Part shown: piece by piece, positions 35,342 through 60,710 of the stretch
Layout: each line of letters opens with the position of its first letter
Numbering within the stretch: the first letter of the stretch is position 1
Source of the DNA: Phycisphaeraceae bacterium
GTDB lineage: Bacteria; Planctomycetota; Phycisphaerae; Phycisphaerales; Phycisphaeraceae
Assembly: GCA_002716625.1 (NCBI GenBank)
Contig: PBAS01000055.1
Coordinates: 1 to 64,000, forward strand
DNA: 64,000 bases
Reading direction: 5' to 3'
The notes under the pieces: generated by a model
What the model saw: the letters and a program-made list of their open reading frames with translations, nothing else
What the model was told of the DNA's origin: nothing
Databases searched by the model: none
Position numbers and translations under genes: made by a program

Positions 35342-37792
35342 TCAAGGCTGCTTTTTCTCGACCGTGTCTAATTGCTCTAGCAGTTGCAAGAAGGACTTGT
35401 CTTGTGGGTACATTTCAACAAGCTTTCGCGCATATACCATTGCCTTCTTGTTATTATTACGGTCTCGACTGATGGTGGTCATCAGCAACAGTAGGTCGCG
35501 ATTATAAGGCAGTTGGTGATGAGCCTCTTCAAGCACTTGCATCGCCTCCTCGAACCGACCGGTGCTGTTAAGCGCCAGTGCGTAAACATAATTTAGGCGT
35601 GGTGAATCCGGTGCCAATAATGCCGCCTGCCTTAGTGAGGCCACTGCATCTGAAACACGTTGCTGGCGAATCAATGCCAAACCAAAGGCATAATGAGCCG
35701 AAGCTGCATCCGGAATTTTTGCAATGGCCTGTCGCAAAATATCCTCGCACTCCTTTTCTCGCATCTGATCCCGATACAAGTCAGCTAGGTTGACATATGG
35801 TTGTACCGCGTGGGGTTCGATCCTGATCGCGTTTCGATAAGCTTCTTCTGCCTCCTCGATACGGCTCCGATCACGATATAGATTTCCCAGATTCAGATGT
35901 CCGGCCGCGCGATCTGCATTGGAGTTTTGAACACCAATAAACTCCTCAATCCCTTGGTGCAACTCAAATGCCTCGTCTTTACTCATGGCTTGCGGCGGAA
36001 CTGCCGCCAAGACCCGTGTCGCTTCGACACGTACCGCCTTAATTTCATCACCGAGCAACGCCCCTCCGATGGGCAGGCGTTCCAACGGCACAAATGTTTC
36101 CAGCGTACTTAATGCATGCAGCCGTACAAGGGGATCCGGGTCGCCAATACCCGCAGCAATCACGTCGGCCGACGGAGCGGGGGTTGTTTGGGCTAAAAGC
36201 GAAAAGGCTGTTGCGCGGGCAATGGCGGGAGCAGTAGCGTCACCAATTAGGCGATTGAGCTTCTTTTCTGCTCCGGGCATACCTTCCCGTCCAAAAGCAA
36301 TCGCCTCGCCGTAGTGCTCTGGATGTTGATGATCTGGTGGGTACCATCCATCTACGGCGTTAGCTGCCCATTGTGCATCCTTGTCTACATGGCAATTGTT
36401 ACAAGCGTTGGGCCAACCGAATTTAACCGACAGGTCTGGTCGCGGAATTCGAATACTGTGATCCCGCCGTGGATCTACAATCATGTAATGGCGTTCAGGC
36501 ATATGACAGGCCACGCAACTTGCGCCCGTGGATCCTTCCGAATGAAAGTGATGGCTGGGATCATCAAATTGATCGGATAAATGACATGTTGCACAAAGTG
36601 CATTACCTGTCGCATACACATCAAGACGATGAGGATCATGGCAATCCGTACAACGGACACCTGCATGATGCATCTTGCTCTGCACGAAAGACCCGTAAAC
36701 GTATGCTTCACCAAAAATTTGCCCATCGGCATGATAAACTGGGTCAACCAAGACCGAAGGTTGGTGTTGATCTAAAAGCCTACGACCATGGCGGTAATCA
36801 TCGTCAACCACGTGACGACGAGAATGACAACGACTGCAGGTCTCCAATTGGATGTCGGAAACAAGCGGCCGGCTGCGACGGTACTTTTTCGTGTCCGCAT
36901 CAAGAACCCAGCGGCCAGCCACCGGTTCTTTAAGCTGAAATACCAAGCCAATCTTCTCCGCATCCAAGTTGCCTGTAGAACCTGATCGATAAACATCATG
37001 GGCCTCTTCTCGGCTCTTATCATCCTGGCGAAGGGAATTCGGCCCCGTTGATGTAAGTCCTCGTTCTGCCCATAACACATGCGTAGAACCCGGACCATGA
37101 CATGCTTCACACGAAACATCTATATCTGACCATGTTGTGTGGTAGGTATTGGTTATCTGATCGTAATTCTTTTGTAGGTTTGTTGAATGGCATTCAGCAC
37201 ACATGAAGTTCCAATTTTGGTTGTGGCCGGTCCAATGCAATTCATCATCATGGGTTATTCGTTCCTCTGGATAAAGATGGAACCATCGCTGCCCACCCTG
37301 CTGTCTTGTCCTTGCATCCCAGCAAATACTTAACGCCTGGTATCTTCCACCAGGAAACTCGATTAGATACTGCTGGAGCGGATACACACCAAAACAGTAC
37401 GCAATTTCATAGTCATGAAGTTCTCCATCGGCTCCCTCAGTATTGACAAAATATCTTCCCCCCCGCTTAAAAAAAGTTGAAGTTACACCAAAGTAGTTGA
37501 ACTTTGCCTGATCGAAATCACCCAGAACTGTATGTTCCGTCGCCTCCTGCATTGCCAAGTCATGATGGGACCCCTCCCAATGATCGTGCTCTTCTTGATG
37601 ACAACTCGCGCATTTCACGCCGCCTACATAGGTAGAGGCCCCGATCCCATCCCCATCTACAACTTTCAACCCTCGGCCTACTGAGGTCTCCGCCACTCCC
37701 ATCCCGAGAGCAGGCTTATCACCTGCACCAATCGCAGCGAATATAAGGACATATACGTTCAGAAGGACTGCGACGAATAAAATTATCTTCAC
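35342..37792 (-). CDS. Octahaem cytochrome c with HEAT-like and TPR repeats
   Basis: An 816-residue secreted protein. After a signal peptide (about 1-22), eight CxxCH haem sites occur at residues 61, 198, 228, 319, 381, 400, 426 and 464. Then come HEAT-like repeats (about 490-610) and TPRs (about 630-790). The haem pattern resembles the cytochrome c554-like CxxCH-TPR proteins common in planctomycetes. A periplasmic electron-transfer role is likely, with the TPRs docking partners. No terminal reductase or quinol oxidase gene is adjacent, so donor and acceptor cannot be named. Confidence 0.88.
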   Translation of the reverse strand: MKIILFVAVLLNVYVLIFAAIGAGDKPALGMGVAETSVGRGLKVVDGDGIGASTYVGGVKCASCHQEEHDHWEGSHHDLAMQEATEHTVLGDFDQAKFNYFGVTSTFFKRGGRYFVNTEGADGELHDYEIAYCFGVYPLQQYLIEFPGGRYQALSICWDARTRQQGGQRWFHLYPEERITHDDELHWTGHNQNWNFMCAECHSTNLQKNYDQITNTYHTTWSDIDVSCEACHGPGSTHVLWAERGLTSTGPNSLRQDDKSREEAHDVYRSGSTGNLDAEKIGLVFQLKEPVAGRWVLDADTKKYRRSRPLVSDIQLETCSRCHSRRHVVDDDYRHGRRLLDQHQPSVLVDPVYHADGQIFGEAYVYGSFVQSKMHHAGVRCTDCHDPHRLDVYATGNALCATCHLSDQFDDPSHHFHSEGSTGASCVACHMPERHYMIVDPRRDHSIRIPRPDLSVKFGWPNACNNCHVDKDAQWAANAVDGWYPPDHQHPEHYGEAIAFGREGMPGAEKKLNRLIGDATAPAIARATAFSLLAQTTPAPSADVIAAGIGDPDPLVRLHALSTLETFVPLERLPIGGALLGDEIKAVRVEATRVLAAVPPQAMSKDEAFELHQGIEEFIGVQNSNADRAAGHLNLGNLYRDRSRIEEAEEAYRNAIRIEPHAVQPYVNLADLYRDQMREKECEDILRQAIAKIPDAASAHYAFGLALIRQQRVSDAVASLRQAALLAPDSPRLNYVYALALNSTGRFEEAMQVLEEAHHQLPYNRDLLLLMTTISRDRNNNKKAMVYARKLVEMYPQDKSFLQLLEQLDTVEKKQP

Positions 37793-38172: not shown

Positions 38173-41100
38173 GTGGTGGACAGTGCAACAGCGGGAAGTC
38201 TGATGCGACCAGCAATTAACTCCTGCCAACAAGAACCGTCCAGATTCCTCAAGGCCAAAAACGACCATGTGTATCTCAGATATACACCCCTTTTCATTGC
38301 TGTTTGTTTACTCTTAACATTTGGTGTCACCATTGGACTTGCCAACGATGCACCAAATATTGTGCTCATTATTGCTGACGATCAATCATGGAACTCGACA
38401 TCGGTCGCCATGGACCCCGACATTTCTCATTCCGGAAGTGATTTCCACCAAACACCAAATATCCAATCACTTGCCAACGAAGGCATGCGTTTCAGTAAAG
38501 CTTATGTATCCCCATTGTGTCGACCGTCACAAATGGCGTTACAAACAGGCAAGAGTCCGGCCCAGCTGCAAATTACCGACAATGGTCAAGATACACAATT
38601 TTCTCTGATGGCACCCCGACCTGCAGATACCCCACGCCATGAAGTATCCATTGGCCAACGAATCCTGGAAACCAATCCAAATTATCGAACAGGTCATTTT
38701 GGAAAGTATGCCGCCAGTTCTGCGGGATGGGGACATGTTGATAAAACGATCGTGGATCGACGGTATAGTGAAATCCCAGACGTGCAAGACCCAAAGACCA
38801 TGTTCACCTTTGCTGCAAGCGCAAACGAATTCATTGAAACAAGTGTCAATGAAAACAGGCCCTTCTACATTCAGTTTACGCACAATGGGGTTAAGTCACC
38901 GATAAGCACACTACCTGAAACATTTCACAAATACGAAGGGTTGACCAAAGGCATCCGTCACCAAAGCTCCTCGTATGCCGCCATGACCGAAGATCTAGAC
39001 ACCGCGGTGGGCATGGCACTTGACAAGTTACAACAGTTGAATATTGCGGATAACACCTATGTGATCTACACCTCGGATAATGGAGGTGCCGGTGGACCAA
39101 ATATACCTGATGAAGCATGGAATTATCCACTTTCTGGGAAAAAAGGAAGCCTGCAAGAAGGGGGGATTCGGGTGCCCCTGATCATCAAAGGACCTGGCAT
39201 CCAACCCAATACCGTCAGTGATGTCCCCACTATCGTGATGGATCTATTTCCAACAATTAGCGAACTGGCCGGCACCACCTACCCACTACATGAGGGCATA
39301 GAAGGAACCAGCCTGGTCCCAGTTTTAATGAATGGTGGACAACTTCCACCGCAAACCCAGACACTACAGCGCCAATACGCAGAAAATGGAGAGCTGTTCT
39401 TTCATAGCACCGAGGGCATATTCCCCCATTCCGCCATTATCGATGGAGATTACAAGTTGGTGAAGAAATATGGCATGACAATCGGCACATTACTTACAAG
39501 TACCGATCCGAATGCTACTGCCCACTGGACACCCAAGTTGAAGATGGGTGGTGATTATGAAATCTACACATGGCTTGGCGCAAAAGATGGTTCAGGTGAA
39601 CTCGATCTAGATTCCCAAGCAAATTACACCATCGAGCATGCCGACGGACAATCACTTGTGACGATTGATCAAAATGTCGCCTCGGGACAATGGAAGCTTC
39701 TGGGAACGTTTGATTTAAATCCCCATGAAGCGCATGGTGTCACGCTTGCAGTTTCTAACGCCACGCCTAACGGCTCTATTGCTGACGCGGTTCGATTTGT
39801 ACCTGTCCGTGGCCGAGCAATGCCCATTACCATTGAACGACAGGATGCTGAATTCAGCCGAACAGGTGAGTGGCGCGTCGCCATGGGTCTCGATACATAC
39901 AGCAATCTCGGCCGGCGCTATACTTTACGCCTGCTTGACCTTTCGAATGACCTGTCTGAAACCACGGATCTTGCCGCACAATTCCCTGAACTGGCCGCAG
40001 AACTGGAAGAGAAACTGAACAAATGGCAACGAGCCGCTGACGCATCACTCATGTACGACATAGCTGGAAAAACCCAGTTGGTATGGGATGGCGAATTCCC
40101 GGGACAGCAGGGTGACGTGGAACTAGCCATCCTAGAGGCCAGCATGGGCACAACACGGCCGCAAAGTGATTTTAATTCTGATGGAATAGTTGATGAACTG
40201 GATCGAAAACTCAAACTTACTGATGTTTCTGCTACATGGCGATCCACGGTTGATGTTGAATACAAAAATCGGGAAACATGGTATCAGTTGGATAATAGCA
40301 AGGACATAAATCGCCAACCCCAACATGTCATGGTCCATCCTCATCAACCATTTTTGCCAACAAAAGCATTCCGATTTGATGGTGATGACGGCATGGAACG
40401 CGTGCATTTTTCCGTACCCTACAGTGATCACTCGGCAACATTTGAGTTCTGGCTTCGCCTGGATTCGCTTGACCAGGAGCACATGCTCTTTGAAACGGGG
40501 CATACCGCCCAGGGCCTATCAGTCACAATTGGCGATGCTGACAGTGACGGCGAATTCGATGATGTTCATTTTCGGGCAAAGGCGCCGGGGTCGAGTGTTA
40601 TTACGGCCACCTCAGAACTTGACCGCTTCACTGATCCAACACGTGACTTTATCCAGGTTGTTGCGGTTATCAGCAATGATTTAAATGACCGGTATGCAGA
40701 AATATATATCAATGGATCTTTATTTGACCGCACTGAAGGTCTTGCAAACATAAACTGGGACCACACAAACAAAGCAGGCCTGGGTCTTGCTGGCGGCTCC
40801 AAGGTGGGCGGCGATAGTGGCATCGGCAAACTACCCTTTACTGAAAGCGGCTTTCATGGTGATCTTGCCTTCATGCGTTATTACAACGAGGCTATCAACG
40901 CCCATGAAGTACTCAACAATTACAACCTGATGCTCGCCCATGTAGGCACAGGAATCGTATCTACCTCCGGTGATGTCACCTTGCCCACCGAAAGACCCGG
41001 TGATGTCCGCCCCGGGGCCCATACTGGCGATCAAGTCATTTCGGTACTCCAGGAACGCACTGATCAGTTGAATAATGCATTACCAGTCGATCTACTACCC

Positions 41101-41793
41101 TCTAGCAACCAGACGTACGGAAAAGGCGGGCTGACTACCGGATTTGATGGTGTTCTGGACGCGGGCATTTTATTGACCAGCTACCTGTTGCATTTTGATC
41201 CACAATCTGACCCCAATACCACACAGACCACACTTGGTTCGATTACCTTTGATCGCGCGATCCGCGGCATTCTTTTCACAGATGAATCCCTGCAAATAAC
41301 TGATCCATTGCTTGGTACCATTGGTCAATATCCCATTGCTAATCGTAATGCAGATCTGGAGAATGATACGCTGGCCCTGTCCGATGATCTTCGCACACTC
41401 ACGTTGACACTGAATGCCACCGCACAGGAAATCATTGAACTGCGTGTCCTCACCTCTGCCGCCCCCGGTGATGCCAACTCGGATGGCTTGGTCGACATCA
41501 TGGATCTAGCCATCCTTGGCGCAAATATAAATGCGGACATGGCCATCCTTGGTGAAAATATAAATACTGATGATCGCTTATGGATACACGGTGACTTTAA
41601 TTTTGATGGTGCAGTTGATGTCGAAGACCTGGCGATCCTAGGGACTCACTGGACTAACCTGAATGAAATTCCTCTGGCAGGTGCTACGGCCGCTTCAGGA
41701 TCAGACAACCTGGTTCCGGAGCCAAGTTCATGCGCTATCATGATCGCGCTTTTGTTTTCTGTAATCCGTCCAACCCCACATCGGCACAGTTAG
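38173..41793 (+). CDS. Giant sulfatase with LamG-like, dockerin-like and PEP-CTERM modules
   Basis: A 1206-residue exported protein. A signal segment lies near residues 38-56 (numbering from GTG; ATG at 38203 is an alternative start). The sulfatase domain (about 58-620) keeps metal ligands in IADDQSW and YTSDNGGAGG, but the formylglycine motif reads C116-R-P-S-Q120 instead of CxPxR. A domain with the pattern of golvesin/xyn-like insertions lies around 470-570. A LamG-like jelly roll spans about 740-910. Dockerin-like Ca2+ loops occur at NSDGIVDELD and as a pair at GDANSDGLVD and GDFNFDGAVD. A PEP-CTERM sorting tail (VPEPSS, hydrophobic segment, RPTPHR) ends the protein. Confidence 0.88.
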   Translation: MVDSATAGSLMRPAINSCQQEPSRFLKAKNDHVYLRYTPLFIAVCLLLTFGVTIGLANDAPNIVLIIADDQSWNSTSVAMDPDISHSGSDFHQTPNIQSLANEGMRFSKAYVSPLCRPSQMALQTGKSPAQLQITDNGQDTQFSLMAPRPADTPRHEVSIGQRILETNPNYRTGHFGKYAASSAGWGHVDKTIVDRRYSEIPDVQDPKTMFTFAASANEFIETSVNENRPFYIQFTHNGVKSPISTLPETFHKYEGLTKGIRHQSSSYAAMTEDLDTAVGMALDKLQQLNIADNTYVIYTSDNGGAGGPNIPDEAWNYPLSGKKGSLQEGGIRVPLIIKGPGIQPNTVSDVPTIVMDLFPTISELAGTTYPLHEGIEGTSLVPVLMNGGQLPPQTQTLQRQYAENGELFFHSTEGIFPHSAIIDGDYKLVKKYGMTIGTLLTSTDPNATAHWTPKLKMGGDYEIYTWLGAKDGSGELDLDSQANYTIEHADGQSLVTIDQNVASGQWKLLGTFDLNPHEAHGVTLAVSNATPNGSIADAVRFVPVRGRAMPITIERQDAEFSRTGEWRVAMGLDTYSNLGRRYTLRLLDLSNDLSETTDLAAQFPELAAELEEKLNKWQRAADASLMYDIAGKTQLVWDGEFPGQQGDVELAILEASMGTTRPQSDFNSDGIVDELDRKLKLTDVSATWRSTVDVEYKNRETWYQLDNSKDINRQPQHVMVHPHQPFLPTKAFRFDGDDGMERVHFSVPYSDHSATFEFWLRLDSLDQEHMLFETGHTAQGLSVTIGDADSDGEFDDVHFRAKAPGSSVITATSELDRFTDPTRDFIQVVAVISNDLNDRYAEIYINGSLFDRTEGLANINWDHTNKAGLGLAGGSKVGGDSGIGKLPFTESGFHGDLAFMRYYNEAINAHEVLNNYNLMLAHVGTGIVSTSGDVTLPTERPGDVRPGAHTGDQVISVLQERTDQLNNALPVDLLPSSNQTYGKGGLTTGFDGVLDAGILLTSYLLHFDPQSDPNTTQTTLGSITFDRAIRGILFTDESLQITDPLLGTIGQYPIANRNADLENDTLALSDDLRTLTLTLNATAQEIIELRVLTSAAPGDANSDGLVDIMDLAILGANINADMAILGENINTDDRLWIHGDFNFDGAVDVEDLAILGTHWTNLNEIPLAGATAASGSDNLVPEPSSCAIMIALLFSVIRPTPHRHS
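41509..41574 (+). repeat. 33-base tandem duplication in the dockerin-like region
   Basis: Two adjacent 33-base units code for AILGANINADM and AILGENINTDD. The units share most bases, including CCATCCTTGG and AAATATAAAT. This adds 11 residues inside the first dockerin-like repeat and looks recent. Confidence 0.7.
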
Positions 41794-54524: not shown

Positions 54525-56558
54525 TCAATGTTCAGCGCCGGCGAAACCAAGGAATTCATCAAGCCAGTCATCTGCTTTTAACACTGCTTTTCTTTGTCGA
54601 AATGTAATACGACTTGCCCGATTCTGGGCTTGATCAGACAAGCGTCGCGGCTGACTATCCTCCAAGGGCCCCTCGCCCTTGGCTTTGTGCAACACACGCA
54701 GCCGCCGCCAACGGGAGGTGTAACGCTGGACAAGTTCGTCTTCTAATGAGGAATAGGCCACCGCGCCACCCGGATCACCCTGCCGAGCTGCACGACCAAA
54801 TAACTGACGATCGATCCGGCCTGACTCATGACGCTCTGTAGCCAACACCTGCAACCCACCCTTAGCGGCCACACCTTCCCCAAGCTTAATGTCAGTACCC
54901 CGGCCAGCCATATTTGTCGCCACAGTAATGCGGCCAACCTGACCAGCACCCGCAATAATGTCCGCTTCCTCGGCATGACGAACCGCGTTGAGTACCTGAT
55001 GGTCTAGACGTTCTTTGTGAAGCAGCCCACTAAGTAATTCACTGGCTCCAACCGAACGTGTGCCAACCAGGATTGGGCGCCCGGTATCATGAGTTTGTTT
55101 AATTCTACTTACGATTGCCCGCCATTTATGGTCAGCGGTAGCGTACACGCGATCAGGTTCCTGCTGACGAATACATGGTCGATGGGTTTGAATCACCACA
55201 ACCGGCAAACGATAGACCTGCCACAGCTCATGTTGGGCCTCTATGGCTGTCCCCGTCATACCGGAGAGGCGGCGGTACAACCGAAAGAATCGCTGAAAAC
55301 TGATGCGTGCCAGGGTATCCTTGGGAGGCGTAACTTCGAGATGTTCTTTTGCCTCAACCGCCTGGTGCAAACCATCACGCCACGTTCGATCAGGCATAAG
55401 ACGGCCGGTAAATTCGTCCACAATGACAATCTTTCCCTCTTGAATTACGTATTGTTTATCGATTTCGTACAGGTCGCGCGCAGTCAGTGCTTGGTTAACC
55501 AACTCCTCACGCCTCCGTGCGCCTGCCCATAAACCCGACATCTTCTGCGTTAATTCCGCCAAATGCTGCCGCCCAACATTTGTAAACTTGATCTCCCTAA
55601 ATCTCCGGTTGATTTCATAATCACGTGATACTTCCATCTCTTTTGCAAGGCCCGCGGCCTGTTCATAAGCTTCAATCTGTTCATCATTACCGCCACCGCC
55701 GGAGATAATGAGCGGTGTTACTGCTTCATCAATAAGAACCGAATCCGCTTCATCAATAATCGCATATTCCAAGCCCCGCATTACCAATCGCTCGGTGCCT
55801 CCACTGACACCGTCAACCAGCCGCCCAAGAAGCACATTCGGCAAACTTGCCTTTTGACCAAGGACTAGGCGGTCACGTAACAGGTCCGCCGTCACTTCCT
55901 TATTTGTGGTATAGGTGATATCAGCATCATAGCCACGGCGACGATCATCAGACTGCATCTGGCTAGTAACCGATGCCACCCGAAGACCACAAAACTGATA
56001 AATTGGACTCATCCATTCAGCGTCACGGGCAGCCAAGTAATCATTGATGGTAATGATATGACATCCTCGACCACGCCAACCAGCGATTGTCGCCGGCATG
56101 GTTGCCGACAAGGTCTTGCCCTCACCGGTTACCATCTCGGCAATGCACCCTGATTCGATGGCCATCGCGGCAGCAACCTGAACCGGGTGCGGCGTCATGC
56201 CCATCTGGCGCTTTGCCACTTCACGAACGATTGCAAATGCCCGAATCAAATCATCATCTGTCTGCCGGCCGAGCCTGAATAAATCCCGCATATCAGCACA
56301 CTGACCACGAAGGCGATCATCACTTAGATCCTTGTAATTATCTGCTAGCGCCACCACCTGCTCAGCCCGCTGCATAAAGCGACGACGACGTGGCGCGAAT
56401 GGCACCCCCATGCTCACCGCGGCATTCCAAGCCGCATCCAAGCCTTTGGGAAGTTTGGTTGCACGCGGTCGATATGCAAGATTGCGCCAGATTGCACTGG
56501 GAATCCCAGGTGATGCGGTAACCATTGCCGCTTCATTTGCTTGCGAACTTTTTTTCAT
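54525..56558 (-). CDS. SecA-like motor lacking the C-terminal translocation domains
   Basis: A 677-residue SecA-family ATPase, against about 900 in housekeeping SecA. NBD1 has Walker A TGEGKT (144-149), HIITINDYLAARDAEWM and Walker B DEAD (269-272); a preprotein cross-linking region follows, then NBD2 with GMTGTAIEAQHE, TNMAGRGTDIKLGEG and FGRAARQGDPG. After SSLEDELVQRY it ends within about 75 residues, so the wing, two-helix finger and zinc tail are missing. ATG was chosen seven bases after the preceding stop. It is the last gene of an operon with the M50-HlyD and GAF-HlyD genes and probably powers or gates that system. Confidence 0.85.
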   Translation of the reverse strand: MKKSSQANEAAMVTASPGIPSAIWRNLAYRPRATKLPKGLDAAWNAAVSMGVPFAPRRRRFMQRAEQVVALADNYKDLSDDRLRGQCADMRDLFRLGRQTDDDLIRAFAIVREVAKRQMGMTPHPVQVAAAMAIESGCIAEMVTGEGKTLSATMPATIAGWRGRGCHIITINDYLAARDAEWMSPIYQFCGLRVASVTSQMQSDDRRRGYDADITYTTNKEVTADLLRDRLVLGQKASLPNVLLGRLVDGVSGGTERLVMRGLEYAIIDEADSVLIDEAVTPLIISGGGGNDEQIEAYEQAAGLAKEMEVSRDYEINRRFREIKFTNVGRQHLAELTQKMSGLWAGARRREELVNQALTARDLYEIDKQYVIQEGKIVIVDEFTGRLMPDRTWRDGLHQAVEAKEHLEVTPPKDTLARISFQRFFRLYRRLSGMTGTAIEAQHELWQVYRLPVVVIQTHRPCIRQQEPDRVYATADHKWRAIVSRIKQTHDTGRPILVGTRSVGASELLSGLLHKERLDHQVLNAVRHAEEADIIAGAGQVGRITVATNMAGRGTDIKLGEGVAAKGGLQVLATERHESGRIDRQLFGRAARQGDPGGAVAYSSLEDELVQRYTSRWRRLRVLHKAKGEGPLEDSQPRRLSDQAQNRASRITFRQRKAVLKADDWLDEFLGFAGAEH

Positions 56559-56565
56559 GACTTCA

Positions 56566-58770
56566 CTACATGAAGAACCGCCGCTGCACCAGCTGACGAA
56601 TCTGGTGCCACCACTGTGCTGCAAGTGGTCGGCTGGGCAACTTGAACCGTACCATCACACGTTGGCCGCTAAATAGAGGTGGAACCCTGCCTTCATCGTC
56701 TTCCAGCCGATCGATATGAACTTCAAAGAACTGTTCAGCGGTACGGGTTCCCTCTGGGTCGTCCATAGCCGTCTGTACGGTTCCCCCGACAGCATATCCA
56801 AGCGCCTGTGATGGCAAGCGCTCTTGCCCAGCTGGATTAACCGCCCGGATCTTGCCATAGAACATTAAGTCCGGCCGGCCTTTCACACGGATTTCAACCA
56901 CAGAATCTTCCCCAACCTCCGTCTTAATACGTGGCCCCAGTTCTTGATCTGCCACAGCGCGGATGAATAAACTATCCAAATCCGCAACGAGACCGGCTTT
57001 GTCCACCTGGTCACCACGCCGTAAGAACGCGCCCTGCATGTACTCTATGTTTGGTGCAATCCACTGCCCGACGATAGGTGCACGAAGATTCAACGTGGCG
57101 ATCCGTTCTTCAATATCTTTTAAATCATACTTTTGATATTGAATCGCATTGTTTAAAACCTGGACAATTGCAGTATCTTCATTAGCCAGTGCTTCTCGCT
57201 GCTGTACTTCAAACCAGGCAAGCTCCGCCACCTTCTGGTCTCGCTCTGCCTCGAGGGCAGGGTTGGTCGCCACTACGAGGGCGTGATCACCTGGTTCAAC
57301 ATGCGTGTCCGAAGCAAGTGTTGACTGAATAAATCCATCCTCTCTCATAAAGACAATGGCCATTTGTCGAGGCTCAACCACCGCTTCAGCGCGATCATGC
57401 TCATCAACGGGAATCAGGCCAATGCCAACAAAAAAAACAACAAATGCACCCCCTGTTAATCCAACAGCTCGAGAGCGGCTGCGCATCAAATCTGGGCTAG
57501 TTGCCAGATAGTTCATCCATTTACCTAATGGCATGATCACCCAGGCGAACAGAGCGCTAATAGCAAGCAACGCGCCAACAAAGAACAGCTTGTCCGCAAC
57601 GAACAGTAATATCCTCACACTGATAAATACACGGTATATGGAGGATGCCAATCCATAACTTACGAGCCAATACCGCTCACCTTCTGTATGTGCCGGCGTC
57701 CGTGCCCGCTCGACTTTATAGGCATACCGCTTGACCAAATAATAGATATATTCCTTGCTCCGCTGGGCAAGATTGGGAATTTCCAATGCATCGGAGAGCA
57801 TATAGTACGCATCGAATCGCAACAGTGGGTTACCGTTGAACACCAAGGTTGAAACACTTGCAATGAGCATCATATTGTGTGCCATTGCGTGAATTGCCGT
57901 ACCCTCGGAGGTCCGCGACCAGACCACAGCAGCAATAGCTGCAACCGCCAGCTCGATATATATCCCTGCCGCCGCAATGGTGATCCGCTGCCACTTACTG
58001 CGTAGCGCCCAACTGCTTGATGCGTCTACATAAGGCACTGGCATGAACACAAGAAACATAATGCCCATCGTGTGAACTTCGCCGCCGGACTGCGTGTCAC
58101 GCCCAAATTTCTTGCATGCAAATCCATGCCCAAACTCATGAAACACTTTGATAAAAGCAAACGACAAATAAAGGAAAATTAAATTATCAGGATCAAGAAC
58201 CTGGCCGGCTTGCCGTGTCAGATTGGCCGCTTGACCCGACAGCGACCAAAATCCAATACCAATTAATATAATCCACGCGACAAAACCAATCTTGGTGAAG
58301 GCAAGCCCAAAAACCCTGACCCATCGATCCAAAAACACGTCAGGATCAATCAGTGGTACGCGTATAAACAATAGATTCTTGAAATAGCCACCCACCTCGC
58401 GGCGAACACGCTTCTTGTAGCGATCAAACATCCCCGCTGCATCAGCAGGCAATTCAGCTGCAAGTAGATTCGATGTATACAACTGGCCTAATAGTTGAAC
58501 AACTTCAACCTGGGTCGGCGCATCATCACCCAAATCACGATTGCATATCTCCCACGCGTCTTGCACCATTCGCTGGCCATCCAAGAGGCCCACAAAGTGA
58601 TACGCTGCGTCATTGAGGCGAAAGAACTGGTTGTTGGACGGATCACGAAGAACGTGCCACATCTGGCCACGGTAATGCTGGCGATATGTCTGAACCGTTG
58701 AACGCAACCGCGGGCGCATTGCCGTGACGCGATACCACGATTCACTAAACGTTGGTCGGTCAACGGTCAT
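56566..58770 (-). CDS. PqqD-like / M50 metalloprotease / HlyD fusion membrane protein
   Basis: A 734-residue protein. Residues about 30-110 resemble PqqD-type peptide-binding domains (HVLRDPSNNQFFRLNDAAY). The centre (about 155-450) is a polytopic site-2-protease domain with HEFGH (211-215) and the distal NPLLRFDAYY motif whose Asp320 completes the zinc site. The C-terminal part (about 470-734) is HlyD-like, with a coiled coil (EAERDQKVAELAWFEVQQRE) and barrel halves ending FSGQRVMVRF. This architecture places a protease next to a membrane-fusion adaptor. ATG follows GAGGGATGAT. It lies between the GAF-HlyD and SecA-like genes, with 41- and 7-base gaps. Confidence 0.85.
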   Translation of the reverse strand: MTVDRPTFSESWYRVTAMRPRLRSTVQTYRQHYRGQMWHVLRDPSNNQFFRLNDAAYHFVGLLDGQRMVQDAWEICNRDLGDDAPTQVEVVQLLGQLYTSNLLAAELPADAAGMFDRYKKRVRREVGGYFKNLLFIRVPLIDPDVFLDRWVRVFGLAFTKIGFVAWIILIGIGFWSLSGQAANLTRQAGQVLDPDNLIFLYLSFAFIKVFHEFGHGFACKKFGRDTQSGGEVHTMGIMFLVFMPVPYVDASSSWALRSKWQRITIAAAGIYIELAVAAIAAVVWSRTSEGTAIHAMAHNMMLIASVSTLVFNGNPLLRFDAYYMLSDALEIPNLAQRSKEYIYYLVKRYAYKVERARTPAHTEGERYWLVSYGLASSIYRVFISVRILLFVADKLFFVGALLAISALFAWVIMPLGKWMNYLATSPDLMRSRSRAVGLTGGAFVVFFVGIGLIPVDEHDRAEAVVEPRQMAIVFMREDGFIQSTLASDTHVEPGDHALVVATNPALEAERDQKVAELAWFEVQQREALANEDTAIVQVLNNAIQYQKYDLKDIEERIATLNLRAPIVGQWIAPNIEYMQGAFLRRGDQVDKAGLVADLDSLFIRAVADQELGPRIKTEVGEDSVVEIRVKGRPDLMFYGKIRAVNPAGQERLPSQALGYAVGGTVQTAMDDPEGTRTAEQFFEVHIDRLEDDEGRVPPLFSGQRVMVRFKLPSRPLAAQWWHQIRQLVQRRFFM

Positions 58771-58811
58771 CTATCATCCCTCGCCATCAAAGGGGGTAGC
58801 CCCTTTTACGG

Positions 58812-60710
58812 CTACCACCAAAGTTTCATGCGTACCCAGTTGACCATATCCCGTGTCCATAACCAAAGGTACCGGGCACGTCCCACCTCAATCCGGGCCA
58901 CGCCTTCAAGTCCCTGGGTGAGATTAATCTGGTCCACTGCTTCTGCCCACTGGTTATTGTTTTGATCAAACTTAACGCGGACGTTAAAAACATTCCGTTG
59001 ATTGATGACCTGCGCCACCGGGGTGATCCGCTCCACAATCACCGGTAAATACAGACCAGGCTGGGCAACTGGAGCTAATTGGCCTTTCTGTCCGAGCTTA
59101 AGATCGGTGATACGATCCTCCGGCATCGCCACTTCCGCGCGAAAAGTATCCAGGGGCGCGATCTCAAACAAAATCCGACCTGTGTCAACAGGCGCCCCTA
59201 ATTCCTTCTTGAGATCGCCCTTGATCAAAATCCCACTGATTGGCGCATAGATCTCAGCCTGTCCAAGTTGAAACTCCTTGAGCCTGATCTGAGCATCAAT
59301 CCCTTCCACCTCGGCCTCAGCCATGAGAACCTGTGCCTGCTGCCCTGGGAGTGACAGGTTCACATCCTTTTCCTTAAGTGCACGCCTCCGCTCCTGCTGC
59401 AATGCCATCAATTCACTGAGCAACTGCCGGGTATCAAGTGCCGCCAGAAGCGACTTTCCCTGCACCACTTCGTCACCAACTTCAACCTCAACCCGTGCCA
59501 GGTGACCCGGATACGGCGCAGGAACCAGTTGCCGCGTAATCGCCTCAACTACAAAAGAGCCCTCAGCATGGTCATTGCCCTTGGCAAATGTAAAAAACAC
59601 AGCTGCAATGAATACCCCCGCCGCAATCACTTTTATCCATGTATGTTCGGGGCCCGTCAGCTTGGCCAGGCCATCGCGGGTCATACCAGCTGCCTTTGCG
59701 CCTATCCATTTATCATGCTCATAAAGGTCAGATAATCGGGCAGTACACAACTCGCAAATAAGGCGCAACACCTCCATATCTTCAGAGGTAAATGGCCGAT
59801 CTATATTTCGCTCAACCGTAAGGACCGCAATGGTCTTTTGCTTGAGCCGCAATGGCAAGCTGCAAATCGCCGTGGGACCATGTCGGCTTGCGAGAGTTCC
59901 CGTAGCCCGAGTGACAAAAGCTGCTTCCGCCGGCGGTGGATGCATGATTTCCAGATCTTGGTCAAAACATTCCTCCATTGCCGACTCGATATCCAACACA
60001 AGTTTCATCTTGCGCGTAAATCTTTCTGTATGACTCAAGGCAACAGCACGAACATAGCGTCCCTTGAGAAAACCCAAGCTTACCCGTTCCGCCTGCCAGA
60101 CACTGGCAATCTCATTACATAACGCCATGGCAGCAGCCCTAAAGCGATCGTTTTCATTGACAGCTGCAAGCAGTTCAAGTCCTTGGCGCAAACGCTTGAG
60201 GTCACCATGGCGATGCTGGAGCGTCAACCGCATCTCATAAAGGCCCAGAAGACTGATCGTCAACTCCAAACGCTGGCGACTTTCAGCGAGCAAGGATGAC
60301 TTGGTTGAATGAATTGCATATGCCGCCACACCACGGACTTTGCCTGATGCGCGGATTGGGATCATAACCAAATGCTGCTGGGGCGACTGGTCATAGTAGC
60401 CTTCGGGCGCTTGAAGTGCGGTAACGACTGTATCCGTGGCCTCCGCCACGCGTGGGGCCAGTTCCACTGACTGCGCTAGCCAGACGGGAGCTGTTTCGTT
60501 TTCCTGTGGCGCCGGGAACACCGCCAGCACCTCAGGGGGCCCTTTTGGAATTGGACGCAAGATGGCACCGCCAGCCGCCGAAGCAATGTGACATTGCACC
60601 GCCAGCAAACGTAACAGAAACTCCTCCGGCGGCCCCTCGAAGGTCGTCAAATGATCCACCAAGTCATTTAATGTCGGCTGGTCTACTTGCGTGGTGTCTT
60701 GCTGGCTCAT
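58812..60710 (-). CDS. GAF-HlyD membrane-fusion protein
   Basis: A 632-residue protein. Two GAF-like sensory regions (about 30-165 and 185-330) face the cytoplasm, one membrane helix spans about 359-376, and a HlyD/biotinyl-lipoyl adaptor follows in the periplasm (about 385-600: AGVFIAAVFF, EVEVGDEVVQGKSLLAALD, IYAPISGILIKGD). Such adaptors bridge inner and outer membranes in type I-like export. GAF domains would let a cytosolic signal control assembly. It is the first gene of the three-gene operon and has a candidate promoter just upstream. Confidence 0.85.
   Translation of the reverse strand: MSQQDTTQVDQPTLNDLVDHLTTFEGPPEEFLLRLLAVQCHIASAAGGAILRPIPKGPPEVLAVFPAPQENETAPVWLAQSVELAPRVAEATDTVVTALQAPEGYYDQSPQQHLVMIPIRASGKVRGVAAYAIHSTKSSLLAESRQRLELTISLLGLYEMRLTLQHRHGDLKRLRQGLELLAAVNENDRFRAAAMALCNEIASVWQAERVSLGFLKGRYVRAVALSHTERFTRKMKLVLDIESAMEECFDQDLEIMHPPPAEAAFVTRATGTLASRHGPTAICSLPLRLKQKTIAVLTVERNIDRPFTSEDMEVLRLICELCTARLSDLYEHDKWIGAKAAGMTRDGLAKLTGPEHTWIKVIAAGVFIAAVFFTFAKGNDHAEGSFVVEAITRQLVPAPYPGHLARVEVEVGDEVVQGKSLLAALDTRQLLSELMALQQERRRALKEKDVNLSLPGQQAQVLMAEAEVEGIDAQIRLKEFQLGQAEIYAPISGILIKGDLKKELGAPVDTGRILFEIAPLDTFRAEVAMPEDRITDLKLGQKGQLAPVAQPGLYLPVIVERITPVAQVINQRNVFNVRVKFDQNNNQWAEAVDQINLTQGLEGVARIEVGRARYLWLWTRDMVNWVRMKLWW

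Follow-up and report, generated by a model that had tools for sequence, protein, structure and literature searches.

The Locus and Its Probable Cargo

What task would bring HlyD adaptors, an intramembrane protease and a SecA-type ATPase together in one operon? The question was raised by positions 54525–60710 of contig PBAS01000055.1 from a Phycisphaeraceae bacterium. Positions 1–64,000 of this contig form the window, that is, the whole 64,000-nucleotide stretch of DNA that was analyzed. Three leftward open reading frames (ORFs) were confirmed there, encoding HlyD-GAF, PqqD-M50-HlyD and truncated SecA proteins. The operon is linked to proteins with an N-terminal LExR leader by co-occurrence, adjacency, and a leader subtype that follows the M50 lineage. 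It is probably the core of a tripartite TolC-type exporter for large LExR-leader surface proteins, with a SecA-like motor and an HlyD/TolC path. The association of the leader with the M50 protein was the best supported step, and we regard it as highly probable.

The locus itself has already been published. Kamneva, Poudel and Ward (2015; PMC4452313) described secondary SecA_DEAD proteins that lack the wing-scaffold domain and have GAF-HlyD and M50/HlyD proteins as neighbors, with an OEP protein at some of these loci and a distribution over several phyla. Methylobacterium extorquens AM1 has such a locus (META1p2402-2399). They proposed a secretion-related locus, called its role "completely unknown," named no substrate, and raised the idea of the SecA-like protein as energy source and the M50 protein as pore. 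By its gene set, domain make-up and wing-scaffold loss, the window operon is a member of this locus, and its SecA_DEAD protein is distinct from the housekeeping SecA. The probable cargo, the LExR proteins, is what is new here, together with a putative leader-binding domain.

The leader had its own history. It was described as the "export signal" of Planctomycetes (Planc_extracel, PF07595; Studholme 2004, cited through PMC8567305). In Tuwongella, such a motif was reported in 8 of the 10 longest proteins and in 52 proteins overall, of which 20 were detected, 8 of these in the sodium dodecyl sulfate-soluble fraction only (PMC8567305). The linked cargo carried this LEPR-XLL (NF012209)/Planc_extracel leader, which earlier accounts call an export signal or a domain. 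No export machinery for it was named in the texts found on LEPR-XLL or Planc_extracel. A literature search, with most subscription journals outside its reach, found no paper connecting the LExR leader with the SecA/M50/HlyD locus.

Co-occurrence of Leader and Machine

The leader was detected with the models NF012209 (NCBIfam LEPR-XLL) and PF07595 (Planc_extracel), the latter of which alone was fitted too tightly to one lineage. Because leader genes were found near the operon or near a solitary SecA-like gene (loci L040, L055, L054, and L068), the cargo hypothesis was put to the test. The gammaproteobacterial set comprised 369 genomes, and a genome was considered leader-positive at an NF012209 E-value of 1e-4, with ~0.04 false positives expected. 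Twenty-four genomes were leader-positive. The M50 protein (at least 450 bits) was present in 22 of these 24 and in 8 of the 345 leader-negative genomes (Fisher 1e-26); owing to relatedness and incomplete assemblies, this and the following p-values serve as guides and not as probabilities. The M50 scores were bimodal, at least 450 bits or at most 364, except for one split gene at 448. When every M50 match was counted, the contrast stayed strong (22/24 vs. 29/345). The truncated SecA was found in 16 of the 24 leader-positive genomes and in none of eight leader-negative controls. The sequence-only reading had proposed a search for co-occurring cargo with a common leader, and the LExR proteins that track the M50 protein are probably such cargo.

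Adjacency pointed the same way. Twenty leader loci were fetched, and at eight of them (L102, L105, L111, L113, L114, L117, L118, and L121) M50 and HlyD genes lay within one or two genes of the leader gene. The SecA-like, HlyD and leader genes were consecutive in genome G545, and leader-machinery adjacency in genomes G298 and G431 was added from coordinates. At 40 gammaproteobacterial loci picked by M50, eight of the 279 ORFs carried the leader motif. Each of the eight was large, and those scanned were built of cadherin, Ig-like or DUF4347 domains; permuted motifs gave 0–1 matches and mid-protein windows gave 0.

Alphaproteobacterial plasmids were picked by tblastn with M50 alone. The leader was present on the giant first gene in all six loci with a readable giant N-terminus. 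In Pontibrevibacter, Pseudosulfitobacter and Thalassospira, this gene was annotated as LEPR-XLL, with ~10,600, ~12,900, and ~4,000 amino acids, respectively; the giant first gene of Methylosinus, Mesorhizobium and Pseudohalocynthiibacter also started with the leader.

Among 156 Planctomycetota genomes, 30 had a truncated SecA (frames below ~800 amino acids). NF012209 matches were found in 14 of these 30 and in 5 of the 126 others (Fisher 3e-8), and the two leader models together matched 21/30 vs. 12/126. G067, which with G048 was one of the two strongest exceptions, does carry the operon, in which the SecA is divergent (L200). Around SecA-like genes, 13 leader ORFs occurred in 9 of 54 loci, vs. 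0 in 20 arbitrarily picked loci of related genomes. The source genome gave 16 NF012209 matches at an E-value of at most 0.5, most of them over the cut-off, in frames of up to 6,174 amino acids. Its cargo genes were scattered and the machine lay elsewhere, as in many Planctomycetota. One candidate cargo gene lay within the window itself (2–676, − strand). It was cut by the contig edge, and its N-terminal leader, FQPLEQRIMLSGNAP, matched NF012209 at 475–434 with 18.6 bits, over the cut-off of 17 bits.

Two leader types were distinguished, SAD and DGA/DAA. The DGA type formed one fully supported clade on the M50 tree, requiring one change, a value reached in 0 of 500 shuffles, vs. a shuffled mean of 5.7.

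Separately, gammaproteobacterial M50-HlyD-TolC clusters that have no SecA-like gene adjoined giants with the variant leader LExRxxFDGAA or VVLDAA (L124, L125/L160, L145, L148, L151, and L157). An ABC ATPase near L145 was considered as an exporter and rejected, being a protein of two domains, ABC_tran and ABC_tran_CTD, in which no membrane part was seen.

Gene Order and Genomic Context

The ORF coordinates bore out the proposed layout of three leftward genes with gaps of 41 and 7 bases. The first gap separates the HlyD-GAF gene from the M50 gene, and the second separates the M50 gene from the SecA-like gene, counted from the ATG at 56558. The SecA-like ORF opens at a TTG at 56624, in frame upstream of that ATG, and so overlaps the M50 gene. 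Scans for sigma-70 promoters and terminators gave results no better than chance.

The triad order recurred far beyond chance. At 34 loci from the same family and order, picked by the SecA-like gene alone, the full triad stood in order at 22, and two more were cut by contig ends. The order was found in Planctomycetota, Kiritimatiellae, and gamma- and alphaproteobacteria. The expectation of a dedicated system with conserved synteny was supported. At the remaining 10 of the 34 loci, the SecA-like gene was solitary. A class of solitary truncated SecA genes with no HlyD or M50 gene alongside was represented by L060, L061, L062, L066, L068, L070, and L078–L081; a leader-bearing gene adjoined at L068 and L081.

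The flanking ORFs that were read included no ABC exporter, RND or TolC gene, in agreement with the sequence-only reading. ABC transporters were likewise absent from the triad and from the neighbors read in the window and in typical clusters. The TolC partner that had been suggested was present in the clusters of some relatives, a result that concerns them and not the source genome, and a third small HlyD was present in many. In the Kiritimatiellae locus L045, an outer-membrane efflux protein and a further HlyD precede the triad. The typical order on alphaproteobacterial plasmids was giant, DUF3467, HlyD, PqqD-M50, SecA-like, HlyD, and TolC. The gene for the small DUF3467 protein separated the giant cargo gene from that for HlyD (L183, 11717–12037; L184, 11836–12117; L185; L187; L188). 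A SapC-family protein occurred within two clusters (L105, 1457–2215; L186, 16233–17054).

These clusters resemble type I secretion (HlyB-HlyD-TolC) in their HlyD adaptors, in the TolC-family partners of relatives and in the large, repetitive, adhesin-like cargo. They differ in having a SecA-like ATPase and an M50 membrane protein instead of an ABC transporter, and in the N-terminal leader of the cargo, whose N-termini were the part analyzed. A first alternative is that the operon only processes or anchors the LExR proteins, through leader removal and surface retention, while their passage across the membrane falls to Sec or an ABC type I exporter. It would be favored by the M50 protease fold, which is related to proteases of peptide maturation, by the absence of the SecA-like ATPase from some leader-M50 systems, and by the report of a giant LEPR-XLL protein whose C-terminal domains are of the RTX type (PMC10868602). 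However, the clusters also contain HlyD and TolC genes, a sign of transit through the envelope, and anchoring would offer no obvious use for a SecA motor that keeps its preprotein-binding domain. We consider this alternative unlikely.

Elsewhere in the window, a sulfatase-like protein of 1,206 amino acids (38173–41793, + strand) ended in VPEPSS, a hydrophobic stretch and a basic tail, resembling a PEP-CTERM sorting signal. A multihaem-cytochrome-like protein (35342–37792, − strand) contained several CxxCH motifs followed by TPR-looking repeats.

The HlyD-GAF and PqqD-M50-HlyD Proteins

Domain calls were profile matches to Pfam and NCBIfam. The first gene (58812–60710, − strand), the conserved first gene of the triad, encodes a GAF-HlyD membrane-fusion adaptor of 632 amino acids, with matches to PF01590, PF13437 (HlyD_3), and PF16576 (HlyD_D23). 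The proposed fusion of an HlyD adaptor with GAF sensors held in part: the fusion was found, but Pfam gave only one clear GAF domain, at residues 195–324 (59739–60128, − strand; PF01590, 32.9 bits vs. a cut-off of 22.4).

The second gene (56566–58770, − strand) encodes 734 amino acids that combine a PqqD-like domain, an M50 intramembrane protease and an HlyD adaptor. Peptidase_M50 (PF02163) scored 33.4 bits over a cut-off of 27.2. The zinc-binding motif HEFGH (residues 211–215; 58126–58140, − strand) and the second catalytic motif NPLLRFD (residues 314–320; 57811–57831, − strand) were conserved, with H211, E212, H215, N314, P315, and D320 invariant in 16 sequences. By these motifs, of the HExxH and NPxxxxD type, the active site appears intact, and proteolysis itself is predicted.

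The N-terminal domain (approximately residues 28–103; 58462–58689, − strand) scored 19.9 bits with PqqD in the window protein, under the cut-off of 23.4, and the PqqD profile matched 14 of 16 family members at an E-value of 0.01 (best 1.9e-6). Its best PDB profile matches, all weak (E 0.015–0.024), were PqqD and two B1 proteins that bind leaders, TbiB1 and TfuB1. The structure model placed three strands before three helices. Profile and model suggest that this domain resembles the leader-binding recognition elements (RREs) of ribosomally synthesized and post-translationally modified peptides (RiPPs). The C-terminal part (approximately residues 454–715; 56626–57411, − strand) received no Pfam HlyD call in the window protein, while HlyD was called in up to 9 of 16 relatives; its model matched AcrA, MexA, and MacA in Foldseek (E 3e-12 to 1e-8). 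These matches fit the fusion of an M50 protease with both a PqqD-like binder and a second HlyD, as first read from the letters.

An RRE-like N-terminal domain and an M50 fold in one pathway, together with an N-terminal leader, recall RRE-guided RiPP maturation (the daptide and YydH/LiaK M50 proteases, and lasso-peptide B1). The second alternative is a RiPP-type pathway in which PqqD binds and M50 matures a small precursor peptide that the HlyD proteins export, close to what the sequence-only reading proposed. Likeness to the daptide and YydH/LiaK proteases and to RRE domains favors it. In contrast, the protein scored far under the cut-off of the daptide intramembrane protease model NF041824 (166.8 vs. 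300 bits), the domains are part of an HlyD fusion and are paired with a SecA-like ATPase, and the recurring operon neighbors were giant leader proteins instead of small precursors. A RiPP-type pathway is very unlikely. The linked cargo proteins range from several hundred to more than 12,000 residues, so a peptide that is cleaved and released was not supported as the substrate, and the export of large leader-tagged proteins replaces it.

The Truncated SecA

The third gene (54525–56558, − strand) encodes a SecA-like ATPase of 677 amino acids from the ATG, with matches to SecA_DEAD (339 bits), P-loop_SecA (197 bits) and the preprotein cross-linking domain SecA_PP_bind (PF01043; 55353–55679, − strand; 99.4 bits). 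The alignment of the protein to Bacillus subtilis SecA covered residues 16–603 and ended there; within it, the Walker A, DEAD and MAGRGTD motifs were all intact. The Walker A motif TGEGKT (56112–56129, − strand) was invariant from T166 to T171 in 22 sequences. The wing and the two-helix finger of SecA lie past residue 603. The end of the match at this residue agreed with the earlier description of a "finger-less" motor and indicated that the wing is missing as well.

The source genome contained a housekeeping SecA fragment separate from this gene (G000:C5:20193-21176), and relatives encoded a separate SecA, mostly of ~1,200–1,570 amino acids. Since a separate housekeeping SecA exists, the third gene is not the sole or general SecA, and the sequence-only reading is not refuted on this point. 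Its structure model had a mean predicted local distance difference test score of 56 and was kept out of the fold search because of this low confidence. Two sets of records were set aside. The "prepilin peptidase" annotation of the SecA-like protein in two plasmids was a naming error, as tblastn aligned 94–100% of the query; the matches in phage collections were unannotated records that look like ordinary bacterial SecA.

A second SecA-type ATPase is also the mark of the accessory Sec system, and the third alternative is a SecA2-like pathway via SecYEG. The strong similarity to SecA and SecA2 models and the retained preprotein cross-linking domain would fit it. However, the wing and finger are absent, no second SecY was seen, and the partners are M50, HlyD and TolC proteins. 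The protein also fell under every NCBIfam SecA and SecA2 cut-off (SecA2 models, score/cut-off: 531.9/930, 570.5/1085, 485.2/725, and 448.3/1100). The accessory Sec pathway is thus highly improbable, even less likely than the RiPP-type pathway.

Proposed Function

Several observations weigh against an exporter for LExR proteins. No cargo gene touched the window operon. The truncated SecA was undetected in 8 of the 24 leader-positive gammaproteobacteria, and no SecA-like gene lay near the Thalassospira and DGA-type gammaproteobacterial loci. Some operon-bearing genomes (G027 and G041) had few or no leader matches, perhaps owing to leader divergence. Relatedness inflated the p-values of co-occurrence, and the binding, cleavage and transport steps are predicted. 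The least probable alternative, already disfavored, is that cargo and machine are both common in large-genome surface-dwelling bacteria and co-transferred without acting together, which their patchy distribution, shared phyla and horizontal transfer (PMC4452313) would allow, but which operon-level adjacency in three phyla, the permuted-motif controls and leader-subtype tracking argue against.

How the exporter of large leader-tagged proteins would bind its cargo directly, cleave it, use energy, be controlled and carry out transport is inferred as follows. In the M50 protein, the PqqD-like (RRE) domain would bind the LExR leader. The SecA-like ATPase, shorn of the parts that work with SecY, may thread the unfolded cargo to the membrane domain of the M50 protein, whose site would act as a gate, a leader peptidase or both. 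Its role as the motor is plausible but not universal, because some leader-M50 systems have no SecA-like gene. The HlyD domains of the first and second genes, with the third small HlyD of many relatives, would form the periplasmic path, and a TolC protein would complete the conduit to the outside. That the GAF domain tunes the activity is a guess from domain identity.

We lean, with somewhat less confidence than for the exporter itself, toward a separate class of secretion serving the LEPR-XLL surface proteome of several phyla, in which the leader, at the N-terminus, is read by the fused RRE domain of an intramembrane protease and a reduced SecA takes the place of the ABC or RND pump of a TolC conduit. 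The finding joins a machine that had no known cargo in 2015 to a tag that had no known machine, so that both become testable, and it predicts an RRE-guided secretion leader. If true, it would show how a cell can bring proteins of up to ~13,000 residues to its surface with no ABC exporter.

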